From Sphingobium sp. WTD-1 (lineage in GTDB: Bacteria > Pseudomonadota > Alphaproteobacteria > Sphingomonadales > Sphingomonadaceae): a stretch of DNA of 64,000 nucleotides. Positions 56,297 to 64,000 of the stretch are shown piece after piece. Position numbers and translations under genes: made by a program. Within the stretch, counting starts at the first letter, position 1; each line of letters opens with the position of its first letter. Where the stretch lies: NCBI RefSeq assembly GCF_030128825.1, contig NZ_CP119127.1:3162001-3226000 (forward strand), in the 5' to 3' direction. The notes beneath the pieces were generated by a model, which was given only the letters and a program-made list of their open reading frames with translations, had not been told where the DNA came from and did no database searches.

Positions 56297-57409
56297 ATGC
56301 AGTTTCCCACCCTGGACAAGGACCAGCGGCGCATCCTCCAGATGCTGCGCAAGTCCGGGCCATTGTCCCGCTCCGCGCTGGCGTCCGCGCTGGAGATCAG
56401 CGGGACCGCCCTCACCCGCCTGTCGCGCGACCTGATCGGCCTCAATCTGGTGGAGGAAGTGCCGGGCGCGGAAGCACAGGGTCGCGGGCGCCCTGCCATT
56501 CCCCTGCGCCTGGCCGGCCATGGCGGCTATGCTGTCGGCGCGACGGCGCACAAGGGCTTCATCGACATCGCCCTGGTCGATTTCACCGGCGCCACCATCG
56601 CCACCCATCATGAGGCCGTGGCACCGATCGATCCCCAGGAATTTGCCCGCAAGGTGCGGCGCATGACGCATGAACTGGTGGACCGGCACGGCCTGCTGGG
56701 ACGGCGCATGCTGGGCCTGGGCGTCGCGGTGCCGGGGCCGTCCCTGTCGCCGGCCGGCGATCGATGGAGCGTCGTCGACGTCCTGCCCAACTGGCGCGAT
56801 GCGCCGCTGCGCGACATATTGTCCGCCGAAATGGGCTGGCCGCTGTGGATCGAGAATGATGCCAATGCCGCGGCGATCGCCGAATATTATCTGGGGGGAC
56901 TGCTGCGCGATTTCGGCACGATCGTCGTACTGCTGCTGGGCTTCGGCATTGGCGCCGGCGTCATTGTCGACGGGCGACTGATGCGCGGGCAATATGGCGT
57001 GGCGGGCGAGATTGGCTGCCTGTTTCCGGGCCATCTGCCCCGTCCCAGCCCGCTGGATCTGTTGGCTATGCTCCGCAGCAATGGGTGCGATCTTTCGTCG
57101 GTCACCGACATTGATTTCAATGCCGCGGACCAGATCCAAACCATTAAAAAGTGGCTGGACCGGGCTGCAGAGCAGTTGGAGTCGGTGTGCAACACGGCAT
57201 TCGCCTGGCTTGATCCGGGGGCAATCGTCCTGGCTGGCACCTTGCCACCCACCATTCTTCAGGGCCTGGCCAACCGCCTGGATGATGCAGACCTCGTGAC
57301 AACGGTCCATCACCGCCGGCCGCCTGTTCGGATATCCAGCCTTCAGGGGTCACCGATCACCTTTGGCGCCGCGCTGCTGCCCATTCATGCCTTGTCCGCC
57401 GATGTGTGA
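56297..57409 (+). CDS. ROK-family transcriptional regulator lacking the zinc motif
   Basis: 370 residues. The N-terminal winged helix (about 8-60: DQRRILQMLRKSGPLSRSALASALEISGTALTRLSRDL) is followed by a ROK sugar-kinase-like fold with GVAVPGPS, IENDANAAAIAEYYLG and LLLGFGIGAGVIVDGRLMRG. The region that normally holds the ROK zinc-binding signature (GHxx then CxCGxxGCxE) reads AGEIGCLFPGHLPRPSPLDLL instead, so the metal site and the usual ligand His are absent. It should still bind DNA as a repressor, but ligand sensing is probably changed. It is divergent from the TonB-receptor/YdcF/nuclease operon, its most likely target. Confidence 0.88.
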   Translation: MQFPTLDKDQRRILQMLRKSGPLSRSALASALEISGTALTRLSRDLIGLNLVEEVPGAEAQGRGRPAIPLRLAGHGGYAVGATAHKGFIDIALVDFTGATIATHHEAVAPIDPQEFARKVRRMTHELVDRHGLLGRRMLGLGVAVPGPSLSPAGDRWSVVDVLPNWRDAPLRDILSAEMGWPLWIENDANAAAIAEYYLGGLLRDFGTIVVLLLGFGIGAGVIVDGRLMRGQYGVAGEIGCLFPGHLPRPSPLDLLAMLRSNGCDLSSVTDIDFNAADQIQTIKKWLDRAAEQLESVCNTAFAWLDPGAIVLAGTLPPTILQGLANRLDDADLVTTVHHRRPPVRISSLQGSPITFGAALLPIHALSADV

Positions 57410-57472: not shown

Positions 57473-57835
57473 CTATCGAGATGCCGGCCCCGAAAGGTCC
57501 CCCCTGCGCACCAGATTCTGACTTATGCGGATCGGTGCCAAATGGCGGCACAACGCATCGAGCGCCGCCGCCGGATCATGGCGCGCGCCGCACAGGAAGA
57601 TGTCGACCGCAGCATAGCCATGTTCGGGCCAGCTATGGATCGACATGTGGGATTCGGCCAGCAGCGCGACGCCAGTGACGCCCTGACCTTCGCCGAAATG
57701 ATGGAGATGCAGGCCGATCACCGTCGCGCCCGCGCTGTCCGCAGCCGCGCGCAGGGCGGTTTCGACCAGCGCCACATCGTCGAGCACGGGACAGCCATAA
57801 AGGTCCGCCAGCAGATGTCGGCCATCATAGGTCAT
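57473..57835 (-). CDS. speD: S-adenosylmethionine decarboxylase proenzyme
   Basis: 120 residues, the short prokaryotic class 1B type. It makes decarboxylated SAM, the aminopropyl donor for spermidine-type polyamines. The self-cleavage site is LAESHMSIHSWPEHGYAA: Ser62 becomes the pyruvoyl group, with His67 and Cys82 (FLCGARHD) as processing and catalytic residues. This is one residue off the Thermotoga enzyme (Ser63, His68, Cys83). A GTG at 57847 that overlaps the upstream stop would add four residues and may be the real, coupled start. It is the last gene of the SPFH/DUF4178/DUF350/aminopropyltransferase operon and converges with the ROK gene. Confidence 0.95.
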   Translation of the reverse strand: MTYDGRHLLADLYGCPVLDDVALVETALRAAADSAGATVIGLHLHHFGEGQGVTGVALLAESHMSIHSWPEHGYAAVDIFLCGARHDPAAALDALCRHLAPIRISQNLVRRGDLSGPASR

Positions 57836-57843
57836 GGGTGGTT

Positions 57844-59457
57844 TCACAGCAAAGTCTCATGAGCATGGCCGATCGCGGACAGCGCCGCCTCGGCCGCGGC
57901 CATGCCCTGATAATGGGCTTCCTCGAACAGCGACAGACCGCTGAGGTCGGAATGGGCGCGGAAGAAGGGCGCGCGAATCCCGGCGCGCTGCCCCGGCGCA
58001 ACCTGCCAGAGGAAGCCGGGCGTCGGCCGGATCATGGCATGGCCCCATTTCCACAAGTCGATCGAGCCGATTGCGCCGTCGAGATCGGGGTTCATGGCCA
58101 AAAGGTCGTTGCGGACCAGCCGCCGCCAGTCGGCATCGGAACGCTCGACCAACAGGCGGCGAGCCTTGGCTGGCGGCATGTCGGACAGGGCCATATACCA
58201 GGTCAGCACCGTCGGCCCTTCGCGCGATGCGTTCTGATGCGTGGCGACGACATAGCCGAGCGAGGCGCTGCTGGCGGAAACATTGTCCCAGGCGAGCCCA
58301 CTGCCCTTCCCCGCCGGCGCGCGATCGACGGTGACATTGGCGATAAGCCAGGGCGCATAGCTGTGGGCGACGTCAGCCTTCTCGCCCAGCAGGCGGCTGG
58401 CGATGAAGTGCGGCATGGCGAGGATGACGGCATCAGCGCGGTAGCGGATGCTGGTCCCCCGCGCGGCATCGAAAACATCGACCGTTGCACCGCCGGCATC
58501 GTCAGGGCGCGCGCGAAAGGCGATCTGGCCGGTCAGGACGCGGTCGCCCAGCCGATCGGCCATCAAGCGGGTGAGGCGGCCATTGCCTTCGGGCCAGGTC
58601 AGTTCATTGTCACCCGCGCCATCGGCGGTGAAGCCGCGCCGACTGGCGAAATAGTGGATGCCGGCCCAGGCGGACACCTCCGCCGGTTCGGTGCCATAGT
58701 CATCGCGACAGGCGTAGCGGACATGGGCGCGCAGCACCGACGAGGTCCAGCCCTGCCGATCGAGCCACCGCGCGAAGCTGATCCGGTCGAGCGCGACCAG
58801 GTCTGCATCCTGCGCGCTATAGGCGATGGGGATTGCAAAGGCGGGCCGCCCCTGCGCATCCCGACGGCGAGAGAAATCGGCCATGGCCCGGTCGAAGGCG
58901 GCAAGATCGGCCCTGTCTCTCACCGACAGGCCGGTTTTCGGCACCAGCCCCTCCTGCCATTTGCCCTGCCAGAGCAAGCGTTCCTGCAAGTCGGCGCAGA
59001 GCTGCAGCGGATCATAGACCGGTCTGCCGTCCCGATCGCCGACGATCATGCCCAGCTGCCGCAGCATATGGCGCAGGCCGCGCGCTTCCTGGTTGGGAAT
59101 GGGGAGATAATGGGCGCCCAGCGGATAGGCTGACACGGCGTTGCGGCCGCCGCGCGCATTGCCGCCGGGCTGTTGTTCCAGTTCGATCAGGCGGAAATCA
59201 TCATAGCCCGCCTCGCGCAGCCGCCAGCCGGCGGTCAGGCCGGCGACGCCGCCGCCCGCGATCAGGATCGGCACATGCGCCTCCCGCTCCGGTTCGGGAA
59301 AGGCGCCGTCGCGCAGCCGGTGGCCAAGCGCCATGTCGGCGCCGCCACTGCTGCCAGCCGTAGGTGTTTCGCAACCGGGCAGAGCCAAAGCAGTCGCCGC
59401 CGCCATGCCTCCCTTCAACACGGCCCGCCTGTTCTGGACTATGGGATCAGCCTTCAT
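57844..59457 (-). CDS. Tat-exported FAD-dependent amine-oxidase-like lipoprotein
   Basis: 537 residues. A twin-arginine signal (QNRRAVLKGG) leads to a lipobox (LALPGC, Cys29), so the protein is predicted to be folded with cofactor, exported by Tat and lipid-anchored. The FAD-binding Rossmann motif is ILIAGGGVAGLTAGWRLREAG (about 64-84) with Glu92, then QQPGGNARGG, the usual GG doublet of amine oxidase/phytoene-desaturase-like flavoproteins. ADAVILAMPHF is the second FAD segment. It overlaps the aminopropyltransferase gene by 11 bp and reaches the speD start, so a polyamine or related amine is a reasonable substrate guess. No direct evidence for the substrate is visible. Confidence 0.82.
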   Translation of the reverse strand: MKADPIVQNRRAVLKGGMAAATALALPGCETPTAGSSGGADMALGHRLRDGAFPEPEREAHVPILIAGGGVAGLTAGWRLREAGYDDFRLIELEQQPGGNARGGRNAVSAYPLGAHYLPIPNQEARGLRHMLRQLGMIVGDRDGRPVYDPLQLCADLQERLLWQGKWQEGLVPKTGLSVRDRADLAAFDRAMADFSRRRDAQGRPAFAIPIAYSAQDADLVALDRISFARWLDRQGWTSSVLRAHVRYACRDDYGTEPAEVSAWAGIHYFASRRGFTADGAGDNELTWPEGNGRLTRLMADRLGDRVLTGQIAFRARPDDAGGATVDVFDAARGTSIRYRADAVILAMPHFIASRLLGEKADVAHSYAPWLIANVTVDRAPAGKGSGLAWDNVSASSASLGYVVATHQNASREGPTVLTWYMALSDMPPAKARRLLVERSDADWRRLVRNDLLAMNPDLDGAIGSIDLWKWGHAMIRPTPGFLWQVAPGQRAGIRAPFFRAHSDLSGLSLFEEAHYQGMAAAEAALSAIGHAHETLL

Positions 59458-60985
59458 AGCGCGCCCATTCCTCGGCGAAGCTGCGCACCAGCGCCTGATT
59501 GTCGAGCCGGTTCACCGGCACCGGACGGCGCGCCATGTCGGGCGGGAAGAATTGGGCCTGGCGTGCGATGGCGTCCGACAGGAAGCGATTGCCCGGCAGC
59601 AGCCGCGTCGCCGCGCCCGGATCGGCCAGCCCGGCCAGGATGAAGCCCCATTCGCCGAAACTGGGCACATAGACATGATAGGCGCGTGTGTGGAAACCGG
59701 CCGCTTCCAGCGTCTGCGCCACGGTCCAGAAAGCGGCGGGGGCGACCAGCGGCGAGGTGCTCTGGATCACCGCCATGCCGCCGGGCGCGAGATGCGGCTG
59801 CAGCATGCGGTAGAAAGTCTCAGTATAGAGTTTGCCGACCGAGAAATCGACCGGATCGGGAAAGTCGACGATGATGACGTCGAAGCGCGCCTTGTTCTCC
59901 CGCACCCAGCGGAAGGCATCGGCATTGACGACGTGCATGCGCTTGTCGGTGAGCGCGCTGCCGTTGAGTGAGCGCAGAAGGCCGGTCTGGCTGAACAGAC
60001 GGGTCATGGCCGGATCGAGATCGACCAGCGTCACGCTGCGCACCTGGGGATGGCGGAACACCTCGCGCGCGGCGAGCCCATCGCCGCCGCCCAGGATCAG
60101 CACATGCGCTGGCCGCGCGACCCGCCCCATCGCCGGATGCACCAGCGCCTCATGATAGCGATATTCGTCGCGCGAGGAGAATTGCAGATTGCCGTTGAGA
60201 TAGAGGCGGATGTCGTCGTCATGCCGGGTCAGCACCAGCCGCTGATAGGGACTGGAAGTCGCATAGATGACGCGTTCGCCATAGGCCGCAATTTCCGACC
60301 AGCGCTGGATGCGATCGGCAAGCAGGAAGCCGGCGATCAGGCTGGCCATCACCAGCAACGCCAGGATGCGTTCCCGCATCAGGCTGGCCCGCGCGGGGAC
60401 CAGCAGCAGCAGGAGCAGCGCGACGCCGACATTGAGCAGGCCGAACATCAGGCCGGTGCGGATCAGCCCCAGATGCGGCACCAGCAGCAGCGGGAAGAGC
60501 AGCGACGCCGCCAGCGCCCCGACATAGTCGAAGGTCAGGACGTTCGACACCGTTTCGCTGAAGTCGAAACGGTCGCGCAGGATACGCATCAGCAGCGGGA
60601 TTTCGAGGCCGACGAGGAAGCCGATGACGAAGACGAGGCCGTAGAGGATCGGCCGGAACTGCTCCACCAGCGGGAAGAGCAGGAACAGGCCGGCGGCCGA
60701 CCAGCCACCCAGCAAGGCGACCAGTATCTCCACCCGGATGAACAGCCGCAATTCGTCGCGCTTCACATAGCGCGAGCACCAGCTGCCCACACCCATGGCG
60801 AACAAATAGGTGCCGATGACAGTCGAAAATTGCGTGACGCTGTCGCCCAGCAGATAGCTGGCGATCGTCCCGGCAAGCAGTTCGTAGATGAGGCCGCAGG
60901 TCGCGACCGCGAACACGCTGGCCAGCAGCAGCCCGACCAGCGCGGTGCGCCTGCGCTCCGTCGGGGCAGAAGGCGTGTCAGCCAT
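59447..60985 (-). CDS. Membrane-embedded polyamine aminopropyltransferase (spermidine synthase type)
   Basis: 512 residues. The first 220 or so form about seven to eight membrane helices. The rest is a spermidine-synthase domain: LYLNGNLQFSSRDEYRYHEALVHP, VLILGGGDGLAAREVFRHP (nucleotide site), VTLVDLDPAM, VVNADAFRWV and IIVDFPDPVDFSVGKLYTETFYRML (catalytic D-x-x-D-P). All residues for aminopropyl transfer from decarboxylated SAM are present. Unlike cytosolic SpeE, it is tied to the membrane, so the acceptor may be a membrane-linked or transported amine. The start at 60985 overlaps the DUF350 gene by 8 bp. SpeD, two genes on, would supply the donor. Confidence 0.9.
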   Translation of the reverse strand: MADTPSAPTERRRTALVGLLLASVFAVATCGLIYELLAGTIASYLLGDSVTQFSTVIGTYLFAMGVGSWCSRYVKRDELRLFIRVEILVALLGGWSAAGLFLLFPLVEQFRPILYGLVFVIGFLVGLEIPLLMRILRDRFDFSETVSNVLTFDYVGALAASLLFPLLLVPHLGLIRTGLMFGLLNVGVALLLLLLVPARASLMRERILALLVMASLIAGFLLADRIQRWSEIAAYGERVIYATSSPYQRLVLTRHDDDIRLYLNGNLQFSSRDEYRYHEALVHPAMGRVARPAHVLILGGGDGLAAREVFRHPQVRSVTLVDLDPAMTRLFSQTGLLRSLNGSALTDKRMHVVNADAFRWVRENKARFDVIIVDFPDPVDFSVGKLYTETFYRMLQPHLAPGGMAVIQSTSPLVAPAAFWTVAQTLEAAGFHTRAYHVYVPSFGEWGFILAGLADPGAATRLLPGNRFLSDAIARQAQFFPPDMARRPVPVNRLDNQALVRSFAEEWARYEG

Positions 60986-61190
60986 GAATGGCGGCGGCAA
61001 CGATGATCCCGAGCGCAATGGCGATAGCGCCCGCAAACTGGGCGACGGCGAGATTCTGCTTGTCGCGTATCTCCTCCCACAGCTTGCCCGGCGTCAGCAG
61101 GTCGAGAATGACGAAGCCGACGACGAAGACGAGGATGCCGACCCCGGCATAGACGAGCGAATTGAGCAATGTCGGCAGCGAGATGAGCAT
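60978..61190 (-). CDS. Half-size DUF350 (YjfL-like) membrane protein
   Basis: 70 residues with two membrane helices (LLNSLVYAGVGILVFVVGFVILDLL and AQFAGAIAIALGIIVAAAI) joined by a short polar loop TPGKLWEEIRDKQNLAV. This is one DUF350 repeat; YjfL of E. coli and many others have two repeats (about 130 residues), so this form probably assembles as a dimer or larger. GGAGA stands six bases before the ATG. The E. coli relative lies in an operon with a glutathionylspermidine-synthase-like gene, a parallel polyamine link. Function unknown. Confidence 0.88.
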   Translation of the reverse strand: MLISLPTLLNSLVYAGVGILVFVVGFVILDLLTPGKLWEEIRDKQNLAVAQFAGAIAIALGIIVAAAIHG

Positions 61191-61199
61191 CGACGTCTC

Positions 61200-61346
61200 C
61201 TATTTATGCGTGGGACCATAAGCGCGATAGGCGCCGGCCGTGCGGCCGCCATCGGCGAAGGGGGAATAACCCTGCGATGCGGCGGCAAGATAGAGGCCAA
61301 GCACGCCAAGGCACCAGAGGGCGTAAAGAAAGCTGCTGCGGCTCAT
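61200..61346 (-). CDS. 48-residue single-pass membrane microprotein
   Basis: A short gene easily missed by length filters. It reads MSRSSFLYALWCLGVLGLYL as an N-terminal membrane helix, then a Gly/Ala/Tyr-rich tail (GYSPFADGGRTAGAYRAYG, ending PTHK). The ATG overlaps the stop of the DUF4178 gene (ATGA), GGGGA lies about nine bases upstream, and the stop is nine bases before the DUF350 start. It fills what would otherwise be a 150-bp hole in a fully overlapping operon. No family recognised. Confidence 0.7.
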   Translation of the reverse strand: MSRSSFLYALWCLGVLGLYLAAASQGYSPFADGGRTAGAYRAYGPTHK

Positions 61347-62686
61347 GGCGATTGCATCCCCTGCAGCCAGTCGTCAGCATCTGCCGGTGACCCGTCCTTC
61401 TGTGCCAGCCGTGCATTTTCGAACATGATGTGCAGCACCAGCATCAGCAGCGGCGGGACCAGGATCATCAGCACCGCCAGCCAGAAGTTGGAGGCGAAGC
61501 GCGCACCACGCGCCACGGTCAGGACGATCTCGACCGGAGGTAGACCTTCGGCCTTGTAGGTGCCGCTGGCCGTATCATAGGCAAAGCTTCCCGAACTGCC
61601 CCAATGATGTGCCTGTACGTCTACCACCAGATCATAGGTGCCAGCAGGGAGACTGGCGACCTTCAGCGTCTGCGCCCGCGCCCCTTCCGACCAATAGCCG
61701 TCGGAATCCCGTCCCGAATAATGTTCGTTGAGGGCATAGGCATCATAGCTGTCCTGGGTCTTGCGATCGACGAAGGCGACATCGACGTCGACCCAGCCCT
61801 GCTCGACACCGGGCGTTTCCACTTCCACCGTCATCGCCTGTCGTCCGAGCGGCAACTGGATCGGGCCGAAGGTCTGCGACACGGTCGGGCCATCGGGGAT
61901 CGCCGACAGACTGAAGCCCTGGGGCTGCGCGGTCCAGCCGAACAGGGTCGCTAGCACTAGCAGCGCCACGAAGGACAAGGCGGCGATCGGCCACCAGCCC
62001 TTGATCCGCCGGGCATAGGGCGATGGCTGATGCGCGAGCGGCGTCATCCCGGGCAGCCAGGCCGGCGGCGGCGCGACATCGAAAGCGGCACCGATTTCTT
62101 GTCCGGTCAGCAATTCGCTGATCGTCCAGCTCTTCTCCCGATCATCCTGTTCCTGGCTCAGCATGAAGCCGGGGCGGACATAATCGGTGGCGCGCACTTC
62201 CTCGCCCACCTTGACCCGCCAGTAGAATTCGCCCGCCACCCGCGTCACCCGCGCGGTGCTGCCGCTGTAGAAGGGGCTGAAGCGGCGGCGGCCGACGATC
62301 AGGTCGCCACCGTCGCGCTGCGGCGTAGCGGTCAGCATGGTGCCAAGGCTCCAATGACCGTTCTGCGCGATCAGCCAGCGATAGCCGGCATATGGGTTGA
62401 ACAGCAGATATTCGTCCCAGGCCGCCCAGCCATCGGTCCGTTGCAGCCAGCCGATCGCTTCCCACTCCACTCCGCGCAGCGTACCGCGCGTGCCGAGCGG
62501 AATGGCGAGCGATGCCTGCACCTCATGATAGCGGGTGATGATCCGCGCATCGGGATTGGTCGCATCGATCAGCGTGCCGCAATATTCGCAGGCGAGCGTC
62601 ACCGTATAGCCGGCCGCGCGCATGGCGATCGTCCCGCCGCAGGCCGGGCAGGACAGGGTGCGGACGCTGCTGTCGTCAGGCGACAT
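61343..62686 (-). CDS. DUF4178 protein with zinc ribbon and membrane helices
   Basis: 447 residues. An N-terminal zinc ribbon (SCPACGG then CEYCGT, about residues 13-40) precedes a DUF4178 domain (about 55-200: GTLRGVEWEAIGWLQRTDGWAAWDEYLLFNPYAGYRWLI, GEFYWRVKVGEEV). A membrane helix follows (about 232-250, WWPIAALSFVALLVLATLFGW), then a beta-rich outer domain and a second helix near the C-terminus (FWLAVLMILVPPLLMLVLHIMF). It begins inside the end of the second DUF4178 gene (11-bp overlap) and ends inside the microprotein start. DUF4178 proteins have no established activity and recur next to DUF350 and polyamine genes. Confidence 0.85.
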   Translation of the reverse strand: MSPDDSSVRTLSCPACGGTIAMRAAGYTVTLACEYCGTLIDATNPDARIITRYHEVQASLAIPLGTRGTLRGVEWEAIGWLQRTDGWAAWDEYLLFNPYAGYRWLIAQNGHWSLGTMLTATPQRDGGDLIVGRRRFSPFYSGSTARVTRVAGEFYWRVKVGEEVRATDYVRPGFMLSQEQDDREKSWTISELLTGQEIGAAFDVAPPPAWLPGMTPLAHQPSPYARRIKGWWPIAALSFVALLVLATLFGWTAQPQGFSLSAIPDGPTVSQTFGPIQLPLGRQAMTVEVETPGVEQGWVDVDVAFVDRKTQDSYDAYALNEHYSGRDSDGYWSEGARAQTLKVASLPAGTYDLVVDVQAHHWGSSGSFAYDTASGTYKAEGLPPVEIVLTVARGARFASNFWLAVLMILVPPLLMLVLHIMFENARLAQKDGSPADADDWLQGMQSP

Positions 62687-63347
62687 GCGGGTGCAAGCTC
62701 CAGCCCGGCAGGGACCGCAGGTTGCGCGGTTGCAGCGACGCCAGCGTCACATGATGGCCGACATAGAGGGACGGGCCGTGCCGATCCTTCTGGAAGGACG
62801 CGCAGCGCCCGTCGCGGTTGCGGAAATCGACGCTCAACGCTTCCCAGCCGGCCGGCGCGGTGAAGGGCAGTTCGCCCTCGCAACCAATGCAGCGCACGGT
62901 GCGGATATCGGTGATCTCATAGCTGTGCCCGGCAATATTGCCGCTCTCGCCCGGCATGACCGGCGCGTCGTTCATCAGGCGGCGGATCATCTGCGCCAGC
63001 GATCCTGCCAGTTCCACCTCGCGCAGCGCCATGAACTGGCCCATCGCCTCGCCCAGCCAAGCATGGCTGCCATCGGCCAGCAGCATCAGCCATTCGTTCC
63101 AGGCGCCATCGTCCCAGGCCCAGCGGACCCGGCCGATGATAGAAAAGGACTGGTCGAAGCACTGCCCTTCGGTGCCGATCTGGACGGGGCTGATGTCGAA
63201 CGGCAGGACCGCCGCCTCCCCCATCGCTTGGGCGCTCTGGCTGTAGCGAACCACCAGCGCGCGACAATAGTCGCACACCCGGACGGGCAGAGCCGGCGAG
63301 CGGAAGACAACCTCCGCGCCGCAAGTGGGACAGGCAAGGGATTGCAT
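62676..63347 (-). CDS. Short DUF4178 protein with zinc ribbon
   Basis: 223 residues with no membrane segment. A zinc ribbon at the N-terminus (LACPTCGAEV, then VCDYCRALVV) and a third Cys pair (VRCIGCEGEL, about 151-160) suggest one or two metal sites. The DUF4178 part includes FSIIGRVRWAWDDGAWNEWLMLLADGSHAWLGEAMGQF. It is a soluble paralogue of the next protein in the operon and could form a heterocomplex with it. It lies seven bases after the SPFH gene and overlaps the next gene by 11 bp. Confidence 0.83.
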   Translation of the reverse strand: MQSLACPTCGAEVVFRSPALPVRVCDYCRALVVRYSQSAQAMGEAAVLPFDISPVQIGTEGQCFDQSFSIIGRVRWAWDDGAWNEWLMLLADGSHAWLGEAMGQFMALREVELAGSLAQMIRRLMNDAPVMPGESGNIAGHSYEITDIRTVRCIGCEGELPFTAPAGWEALSVDFRNRDGRCASFQKDRHGPSLYVGHHVTLASLQPRNLRSLPGWSLHPHVA

Positions 63348-63354
63348 CGACGGC

Positions 63355-64000
63355 TTAGCGGATGCGGCCCAGCAGTTCCGCCTTCTTGCTGTCGAACTCG
63401 GCCTGGGTGAGCGAGCCCATTTCCAGCAACTTGTGCAGCCTTTCGATCAGGGCGAAGGGATCTTCGGAAGGTGCCGCCGGGGCGCTGGCCGCGCCGCCCA
63501 GCGCCCCGGCCATGGCCTGGCCAATGGCAAGGCCGGCCGTTGCGCCCGCGCCGACGCCGGCGACACCGCCGGACTGCGCCGCGGCAGTCTCGATCGCCTC
63601 GGCCGCCTGGAACCTGGCATAGCGGTCGAGATCGCCCAGCACCCGCATCGAACTGGCCTTGTCGAGATGCTTCTGCACCTCTTCGGGAAGGGACAGGCTT
63701 TCGACGAAGAAGCTTTCGACCGACAGGCCCCATTGCGCGAAGGCGGGCGCGACCGCGGCCTTGAGCGCATCGGACAGGGCACTCTGGCTGGCGGCAAGGT
63801 CGAGGAAGGCGGTGCCGCCGCCCGCCACGCCGGTTGCCAGCGCAGTCTGGATCGCCGCACGGAGCTGCGGCTCGACATCCGCTACCTTCACTTCGCCCAG
63901 CGTCCCCATGATCCGCGAGGCGAAGGGCGCGATTTCCTTGATACGGAAGCTGTAGCGGCCGAAGGCCCGGACGCGCAGCGGCCCCAGTTCGGGGTCGCGC
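63355..64000 (-). CDS. SPFH-domain protein with C-terminal SHOCT (5' end off the right edge)
   Basis: The C-terminal 214 codons are in the window, and the frame is open to the edge. The visible SPFH part includes VRAFGRYSFRIKEIAPFASRIMGTLGEV, LRAAIQTALA and QWGLSVESFFVESLSLPEEVQKHLDKASSMRVLGDLDRYARFQAAEAIE. These match the YdjI-like (virion-core-type) branch of SPFH proteins. A Gly/Ala-rich helix (about 63480-63590) and a terminal SHOCT motif (DPFALIERLHKLLEMGSLTQAEFDSKKAELL) follow. Such proteins scaffold membrane microdomains. It is the first visible gene of the DUF4178/DUF350/polyamine operon; its start and promoter are outside the window. Confidence 0.85.
   Translation of the reverse strand, partial: RDPELGPLRVRAFGRYSFRIKEIAPFASRIMGTLGEVKVADVEPQLRAAIQTALATGVAGGGTAFLDLAASQSALSDALKAAVAPAFAQWGLSVESFFVESLSLPEEVQKHLDKASSMRVLGDLDRYARFQAAEAIETAAAQSGGVAGVGAGATAGLAIGQAMAGALGGAASAPAAPSEDPFALIERLHKLLEMGSLTQAEFDSKKAELLGRIR

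Follow-up and report, generated by a model that had tools for sequence, protein, structure and literature searches.

Where in the cell, and on which molecule, does a membrane-bound aminopropyltransferase act that is encoded together with an S-adenosylmethionine decarboxylase (SpeD)? The question is raised by an operon of Sphingobium sp. WTD-1, whose genome comprises 5.67 Mb in 6 contigs. We analyzed a stretch of 64,000 nucleotides (contig NZ_CP119127.1, in our numbering G000:C1:3162001-3226000; hereafter the window), in which eight open reading frames (ORFs) on the minus strand lead from a gene for an SPFH protein to speD, every neighbour pair overlapping or abutting. We suggest that SpeD makes the donor in the cytosol, that the periplasm-facing enzyme domain of a membrane protein/aminopropyltransferase fusion aminopropylates an envelope molecule, and that a flavoenzyme with a twin-arginine translocation (Tat)-type signal likely oxidises the product. 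We regard this reading as about evenly balanced between right and wrong. The operon is made up as follows, in window positions.

63355..64000, continuing to 64344, minus strand: SPFH/Band_7_1 protein with a C-terminal SHOCT-like tail (Pfam Band_7_1, 3.8e-69)
62676..63347, minus strand: DUF4178 protein 1, zinc-ribbon-like N-terminus followed by DUF4178 (Pfam, 9.1e-11)
61343..62686, minus strand: DUF4178 protein 2, zinc ribbon, DUF4178, helix, beta-sandwich, helix (Pfam, 6.2e-17)
61200..61346, minus strand: protein of 48 residues with a single hydrophobic segment (Pfam: none)
60978..61190, minus strand: short DUF350 protein of 70 residues with two hydrophobic segments (Pfam, 4.4e-16)
59447..60985, minus strand: seven-helix membrane protein/aminopropyltransferase fusion of 512 residues, ATG at 60985 (NF002956, 665.7 bits; Spermine_synth, 1.5e-36)
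60323..60985, minus strand: membrane half of the fusion, residues 1-221
59450..60274, minus strand: aminopropyltransferase half of the fusion, from residue 238
57844..59457, minus strand: flavoenzyme of the amine-oxidase superfamily (Pfam Amino_oxidase, 4.1e-8, 33.4 bits, cut-off 19.8)
59371..59457, minus strand: start of the flavoenzyme, a signal of Tat type comprising RR at residues 10-11, a hydrophobic stretch and the Cys of a lipobox-like LPGC
57473..57847, minus strand: SpeD, class-1b S-adenosylmethionine decarboxylase (AdoMet_dc, 3.5e-35; TIGR03330, 120.8 bits)

From the SPFH gene to speD the gaps are 7, -11, -4, 9, -8, -11 and -4 bases if SpeD starts at a GTG. An alternative ATG lies four codons further in and turns the last gap into +8, so that the range of 0-8 bases given in the preliminary description for this gap agrees with the ATG start, the GTG start giving -4. 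Its eight overlapping or abutting leftward genes and the other gap values were recovered as well. The family names it had assigned are backed by Pfam hits, with the exception of SHOCT, which lies just below its cut-off, and a Pfam scan assigned the 48-residue protein to no family. The SPFH gene crosses the window edge and probably starts at an ATG at L003:8344 (64344 on the window scale). For three genes of the window the nearest named proteins come from Sphingobium.

The side of the membrane on which the enzyme domain lies decides much of the argument. The fusion scores 665.7 bits against NF002956 (cut-off 472) and thus belongs to the family of seven-transmembrane/spermidine synthase fusions; the earlier designation as a membrane-embedded aminopropyltransferase holds, the seven helices being predicted. 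We aligned the window protein with 66 of 71 non-redundant references, and the AlphaFold2 model computed from these 67 sequences (predicted local distance difference test score, pLDDT, 91.3; predicted template modelling score 0.79) has seven long helices in front of the enzyme domain (residues 10-46, 49-73, 78-106, 110-137, 142-172, 174-195 and 200-221). Lysine and arginine are more frequent in loops 2-3, 4-5 and 6-7 (mean 9.9) than in loops 1-2, 3-4 and 5-6 (mean 1.9) in all 108 fusions examined. Recomputed with the AlphaFold2 helix limits, the bias is again seen without exception (81 of 81 and 27 of 27 cases). The seventh hydrophobic segment is strong (median best 15-mer 2.5 in the 108 fusions). 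Because of this loop charge pattern and the seven helices of the model the aminopropyltransferase domain is predicted to lie outside the cytoplasm, on the periplasmic side. The cysteine content of the enzyme domain is 0.38% in the 67 aligned fusions versus 1.75% in 21 soluble SpeE domains, and 28 of the 67 fusions but none of the 21 soluble proteins are free of cysteine in this domain. At four positions inside the helices, E35, E86, E128 and D153, an acidic residue is present in 94-100% of the 67 sequences, and such residues would suit a cationic substrate.

The flavoenzyme points to the same compartment. We aligned it with 54 of 75 references; four of the dropped rows look like unrelated flavoproteins. 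At the Tat position 47 of the 55 sequences, the window protein among them, have RR, seven have RK and one has RG. All 55 have a hydrophobic stretch (12-mer) and 29 a lipobox-like cysteine. With its Tat-type signal the flavoenzyme is predicted to be periplasmic, and the exported FAD enzyme of the preliminary description is borne out as a prediction by this signal and by the assignment to the amine-oxidase superfamily. From the Tat-type signal and the fusion topology, two operon enzymes are therefore predicted on the periplasmic side. For this reason modification of the envelope, which had been put forward before, fits better than cytosolic polyamine synthesis. The earlier idea is thereby sharpened; it is partly supported and largely anticipated in print.

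The strongest competitor keeps the enzyme domain in the cytoplasm. In the manner of MprF it would aminopropylate an inner-leaflet lipid or another acceptor, and the membrane half would flip the product outward to the flavoenzyme. Such a scheme is attractive in that SpeD makes the donor in the cytosol and in that the enzyme is fused to a transporter-like membrane half, as set out in passages of an article in mSystems (2024, PMC11237479), and a Tat-type signal on the flavoenzyme would still be compatible with it. The loop charges in each of the 108 fusions, the seven helices and the low cysteine content, however, all indicate that the domain is outside, and we consider this scheme unlikely.

Is the operon a unit? 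A profile scan of genome contigs with the fusion alignment confirmed 569 relatives, and the best 80 of these 569 are our named loci. The second sample consists of 249 evenly drawn Pseudomonadota genomes; 28 have a fusion over the cut-off, the window's genome included, and the other 27 supply the sampled loci, some of them on short contigs. As neighbours we counted genes that share the strand of the fusion and lie no more than 10 kb from it, and contigs ending inside the cluster (e.g., L072, L126, L130) were kept in the denominators. At least one DUF4178 gene is present in 79 of the 80 named loci, the flavoenzyme in 78 (at L047 only as a piece of 41 residues), DUF350 in 76, SpeD in 72, the 48-residue type in 48 and an SPFH gene in 43. 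Two DUF4178 ORFs occur in 50/80, the type of protein 1 in 50/80, that of protein 2 in 78/80, and all eight gene kinds in 37/80. For the sampled loci (n = 27) the counts are 21 for DUF350, 16 for DUF4178, 10 for SpeD, seven for the flavoenzyme, five for SPFH and two for the 48-residue type, with all eight kinds in two. The named loci span Pseudomonadota, Bacteroidota, Verrucomicrobiota, the Vampirovibrio/Obscuribacter group and others. DUF4178 occurs genome-wide in 18 of the 249 genomes, and all 18, from nine taxonomic families, are among the 28 fusion genomes (Fisher 1.2e-20, shared ancestry ignored). SpeD is found in 23 of the 28 fusion genomes versus 34 of the 221 others (1.4e-12, shared ancestry ignored); two of the five fusion genomes lacking class-1 SpeD have a class-2 S-adenosylmethionine decarboxylase (AdoMetDC). 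These counts support the operon as a unit with a conserved core. A conserved neighbourhood in other genomes, the check named in the preliminary description, was thus found, since the core genes are kept across several bacterial phyla.

The loci vary in their DUF proteins. In Verrucomicrobiota-type loci (L044, L045, L046, L049, L052, L059) the DUF4178 ORF has 631-684 residues and may combine the two DUF4178 proteins in one chain. In many other Pseudomonadota (L125-L144), long DUF350 proteins of about 280-300 residues replace the 70-residue form, and some of these loci have PspA and DUF2170 genes close by.

With regard to the accessory proteins of the window itself, the SHOCT-like tail of the SPFH protein reaches 24.9 bits (1.6e-5; cut-off 27), and a Gly/Ala-rich hydrophobic stretch is visible by eye in this protein. 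On inspection by eye DUF4178 protein 1 has no membrane helix. For DUF4178 protein 2 we aligned 54 of 75 references with the window protein and found the zinc-ribbon cysteines 13, 16, 33 and 36 to be invariant (n = 55). Its AlphaFold2 model (pLDDT 89.8) consists of the zinc ribbon, a beta-rich DUF4178 domain, a helix (223-249), a beta-sandwich (254-394) that resembles many unrelated sandwiches in a fold comparison, and a last helix (398-427). Judged by eye from the flanking charges, the zinc ribbon and DUF4178 would be inside and the sandwich outside. The DUF350 alignment holds 33 of 54 references and the window protein (n = 34).

Could the operon rather be a membrane-stress module? SPFH or PspA together with DUF350 and DUF4178 proteins would then sense the state of the membrane, and the enzymes would tune local polyamines without a defined target. 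DUF4178 protein 2 is indeed built like a sensor in its model, and families of the PspA and DUF2170 type lie near the fusion in other Pseudomonadota: in seven of the 107 loci we find a gene family with a PspA_IM30-scoring member (L140, 1.2e-34; one member scanned) and in six of the 107 a family with a DUF2170 member (L129, 2.3e-35; one member scanned). An idea of this kind has already been proposed, and neighbours of the PspA/DUF2170 type are described, in passages of PMC11237479. A stress module leaves the export signal of the flavoenzyme and an extracytoplasmic aminopropyltransferase unexplained, and we think it improbable.

What reaction would the enzyme domain catalyze? The best Foldseek match of the fusion model is the Thermus aminopropyltransferase 1uir (E = 1.5e-16). 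For the comparison with 21 soluble SpeE proteins we called a residue common if it is found in at least 90% of the fusions and at least 85% of the soluble enzymes. Q248, D273, Y277, H278 and the GGGD of positions 299-302 are among these common residues, as are D324, D356, D374 and D377. Three positions differ. All 67 fusions have Phe at position 443, Pro at 376 and Leu or Met at 304, whereas 20 of the 21 soluble proteins have Tyr, Thr and Gly, respectively. Positions 443 and 376 presumably lie near the acceptor in soluble SpeE. Going by the alignment, the fusion keeps the donor and catalytic site while the acceptor side is changed, and we infer that its acceptor is not putrescine. The intact active site claimed earlier is thus confirmed for the donor and catalytic residues but not for the acceptor side (F443, P376). 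An identity of the fusion as spermidine synthase proper is not supported at these positions, as the Tyr and Thr of SpeE at 443 and 376 are replaced by Phe and Pro in 67 of 67.

The donor would come from SpeD. The window protein scores 120.8 bits against the curated model TIGR03330 and is above the cut-off (75.65). In an alignment to 1tlu, its residues S66, H71 and C86 correspond to S63, H68 and C83 of Thermotoga maritima SpeD, the pyruvoyl Ser, the His and the Cys given in PMC10407285. This source also describes SpeD-derived ornithine and arginine decarboxylases with diagnostic positions and names a carboxyspermidine route to spermidine. Window SpeD is predicted to make decarboxylated S-adenosylmethionine in the cytosol, as the preliminary description had assumed; processing and catalytic residues are kept. 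It is the single class-1 SpeD of the genome, and a class-2 AdoMetDC was not found there. No protein of this genome is above the cut-off of the SpeE model, and two other PF01564 matches are short (34.2 and 24.5 bits, Pfam cut-off 22.9). About 76 kb before the window the following cluster (L180) is located.

G000:C1:3080517-3085648: genes for a pyridoxal-phosphate-dependent decarboxylase, an alpha/beta hydrolase and carboxy(nor)spermidine synthase- and decarboxylase-like proteins

The first of these decarboxylases is of the ornithine type. The carboxynorspermidine-synthase-like gene matches with 4.3e-133 and the carboxynorspermidine-decarboxylase-like gene with 1.7e-112. It is likely that this genome makes spermidine without SpeD via the carboxyspermidine route. 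Since genes for a SpeD-independent route are present, its sole class-1 SpeD looks dedicated to the operon.

The least probable explanation makes the fusion a normal spermidine synthase, with a membrane tether that is incidental, and the operon a matter of polyamine housekeeping. In its favour are the NCBIfam family name (polyamine aminopropyltransferase, 665.7 bits over 472), the kept catalytic residues, a spermidine-rich Sphingomonas that carries the operon and a genome with no protein at the SpeE cut-off and only weak other PF01564 matches (34.2 and 24.5 bits). Against it speak the clustered genes for an ornithine-type decarboxylase and for carboxyspermidine synthase-like and decarboxylase-like proteins, the loss in 67 of 67 fusions of the Tyr found in 20 of 21 soluble SpeE, and an enzyme domain predicted in the periplasm. 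Li et al. 2019 (Biochem J 476:2579), moreover, reportedly saw neither complementation of a spermidine synthase mutant nor spermidine in the hosts.

As for the flavoenzyme, Pfam (PF01593) and PDB profiles place it in the amine-oxidase superfamily. The profile matches include MAO B (8.7e-13) and SpdH (7.7e-11), the best stretches being mostly the FAD-binding start. Amine oxidases of the MAO/PAO/LSD1 kind carry a conserved catalytic lysine. Across the 55 operon flavoenzymes no column with lysine in at least 50% was found, and because no lysine column reaches 50% we do not file the protein as a polyamine oxidase. Among the NCBIfam models, HpnE is matched by 54 of the 55 (best 2.7e-15) and PigB by 52 of the 55 (best 3.3e-23). 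An identity as PigB was rejected: the window protein reaches 15 bits (E = 0.0062) and that of L067 82 bits, against a cut-off of 850 bits. The label polyamine oxidase, used in passages of PMC11237479, is doubtful given the 55 sequences without a conserved lysine column.

In other lineages a further protein follows the flavoenzyme. A polytopic, His-rich membrane protein of about 355 residues is found in 30 of the 107 loci, mostly of Bacteroidota, and overlaps the flavoenzyme gene or lies within 200 bp of it in 29 of the 30, some overlaps being due to long start choices. Three examples are listed here; there are 27 more loci.

L086:12212-13288: His-rich membrane protein
L081:12119-13201: His-rich membrane protein
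L067:12166-13290: His-rich membrane protein

In an alignment of 19 of the 30 members five histidines reach a conservation of 95% or more, and acidic residues are conserved too. No relative in the PDB was found by sequence. Two members scanned against Pfam gave no family at 0.01, and a Pfam comparison with the 19 members gave only chance-level hits (best 0.026). The profile had no match in the window's genome, in a search run without a positive control. Distant relatives were seen in three genomes that have no fusion over the cut-off (G067:C1:2306716-2307858, G083:C1:3330790-3331176, G241:C1:377656-377901).

Two other genes border the operon.

L003:8514-10625, minus strand: TonB-receptor-like gene upstream of the SPFH gene, its stop 169 bp from the likely SPFH start
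56297-57409, plus strand: ROK-family regulator gene, convergent with speD (best NCBIfam matches Mlc/NagC, below cut-offs)

We suggest that the reaction proceeds in these steps. Cytosolic SpeD would form decarboxylated S-adenosylmethionine. The membrane half, with its four conserved acidic helix residues, may carry this cationic donor across the membrane. The periplasmic aminopropyltransferase domain would then add aminopropyl groups to an envelope molecule, and the flavoenzyme with its Tat-type signal could oxidise the aminopropylated product. The DUF4178, DUF350 and SPFH proteins might have a regulating or organising part in this membrane reaction. The chain from transport of the donor by the membrane half through aminopropylation of an envelope component in the periplasm to oxidation by the flavoenzyme, joined in Bacteroidota and others by the His-rich enzyme, is put forward tentatively; its chances fall somewhat short of even.

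Several points weigh against the periplasmic reading. Decarboxylated S-adenosylmethionine arises in the cytosol, and that the membrane half carries it across is wholly our supposition. To our knowledge, there is no periplasmic enzyme that uses decarboxylated S-adenosylmethionine. Topology predictions from charge bias can fail, and the 108 fusions are related and are therefore not 108 independent votes, which applies to the cysteine counts as well. The second helix is weak, with a best 15-mer above 1.6 in 46% of the fusions; the side of the last helix is left untouched by this, because it follows from loop 6-7 alone. Both carboxynorspermidine genes of the cluster score below the strict model cut-offs. 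A match to carboxyspermidine synthase is present in only nine of the 28 fusion genomes, versus 50 of the 221 others, and the argument for a dedicated donor is therefore limited to the window's genome. In G082 and G196 a SpeD match adjoins a soluble SpeE match, and G007 has both matches, located apart. Sphingomonas spermidinifaciens (L029), in which all eight gene kinds are present, owes its name to spermidine and is described in the title of a reference as having it as major polyamine. Finally, the SPFH gene (43/80 named, 5/27 sampled loci), the flavoenzyme (7/27 sampled loci) and the full set of eight kinds (37/80 and 2/27) are patchy, and these parts are therefore not essential to the core.

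If the predicted side is true, a group donor derived from S-adenosylmethionine would be used outside the cytoplasm, and the products of many genes annotated as spermidine synthase or polyamine aminopropyltransferase would not be sources of cytosolic spermidine. The periplasmic reading also makes the role of the AdoMetDC/DUF350 clusters testable. Should the predicted side prove false, the window holds one more copy of a published operon.

How does the operon compare with known systems? Li et al. 2019 reportedly found clusters of AdoMetDC and a major facilitator superfamily (MFS)-spermidine synthase with DUF350 and proposed a role independent of polyamines. Their AdoMetDCs are said to be functional, the hosts to be without spermidine and the fusion not to have complemented a spermidine synthase mutant. 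The enzyme pair and DUF350 would be shared with the window operon, for which our analysis brings in the predicted membrane side, the export signal of the flavoenzyme and the probable spermidine route of the host's own genome. SpdH and MAO/PAO/LSD1 share the superfamily with the operon flavoenzyme, in which the conserved lysine of MAO/PAO/LSD1 is not kept. PigB, a membrane-associated dihydropyrrole oxidase according to a passage of PMC7065143, and HapB resemble the operon flavoenzymes, 52 of 55 of which match the PigB model; the operon proteins have a Tat-type signal. With the soluble aminopropyltransferases (1uir, SpeE) the fusion shares the fold and the donor and catalytic residues; unlike soluble SpeE it has a membrane half, low cysteine and, toward the acceptor, F443 and P376.

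Closest are the operons of PMC11237479. That article describes the spermidine-synthase/seven-transmembrane fusion in the company of DUF350 and DUF4178, as well as a band-7/SHOCT variant that further includes AdoMet decarboxylase and the polyamine oxidase mentioned above; two membrane helices separate band-7 from SHOCT in this variant. The window operon is composed of the same kinds (band-7/SHOCT, DUF350, DUF4178, the fusion, AdoMetDC, flavoenzyme) and has the gene set of this variant, with SHOCT at 24.9 bits against 27. It differs by a DUF350 protein of 70 residues and a doubled DUF4178, and a His-rich partner occurs in other lineages. Its authors propose that such operons couple membrane dynamics to the level of polyamines or to the aminopropylation of other substrates. 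The general link between DUF350 and polyamine chemistry drawn in the preliminary description is thus supported and was already in print. No word beginning with "periplasm" appears in the main text of that article, and its passages on the fusion leave the side of the synthase domain unplaced. In summary, the operon kind is known, and what we add is the predicted membrane side, the change at the acceptor site and the probable spermidine route of the host's own genome.

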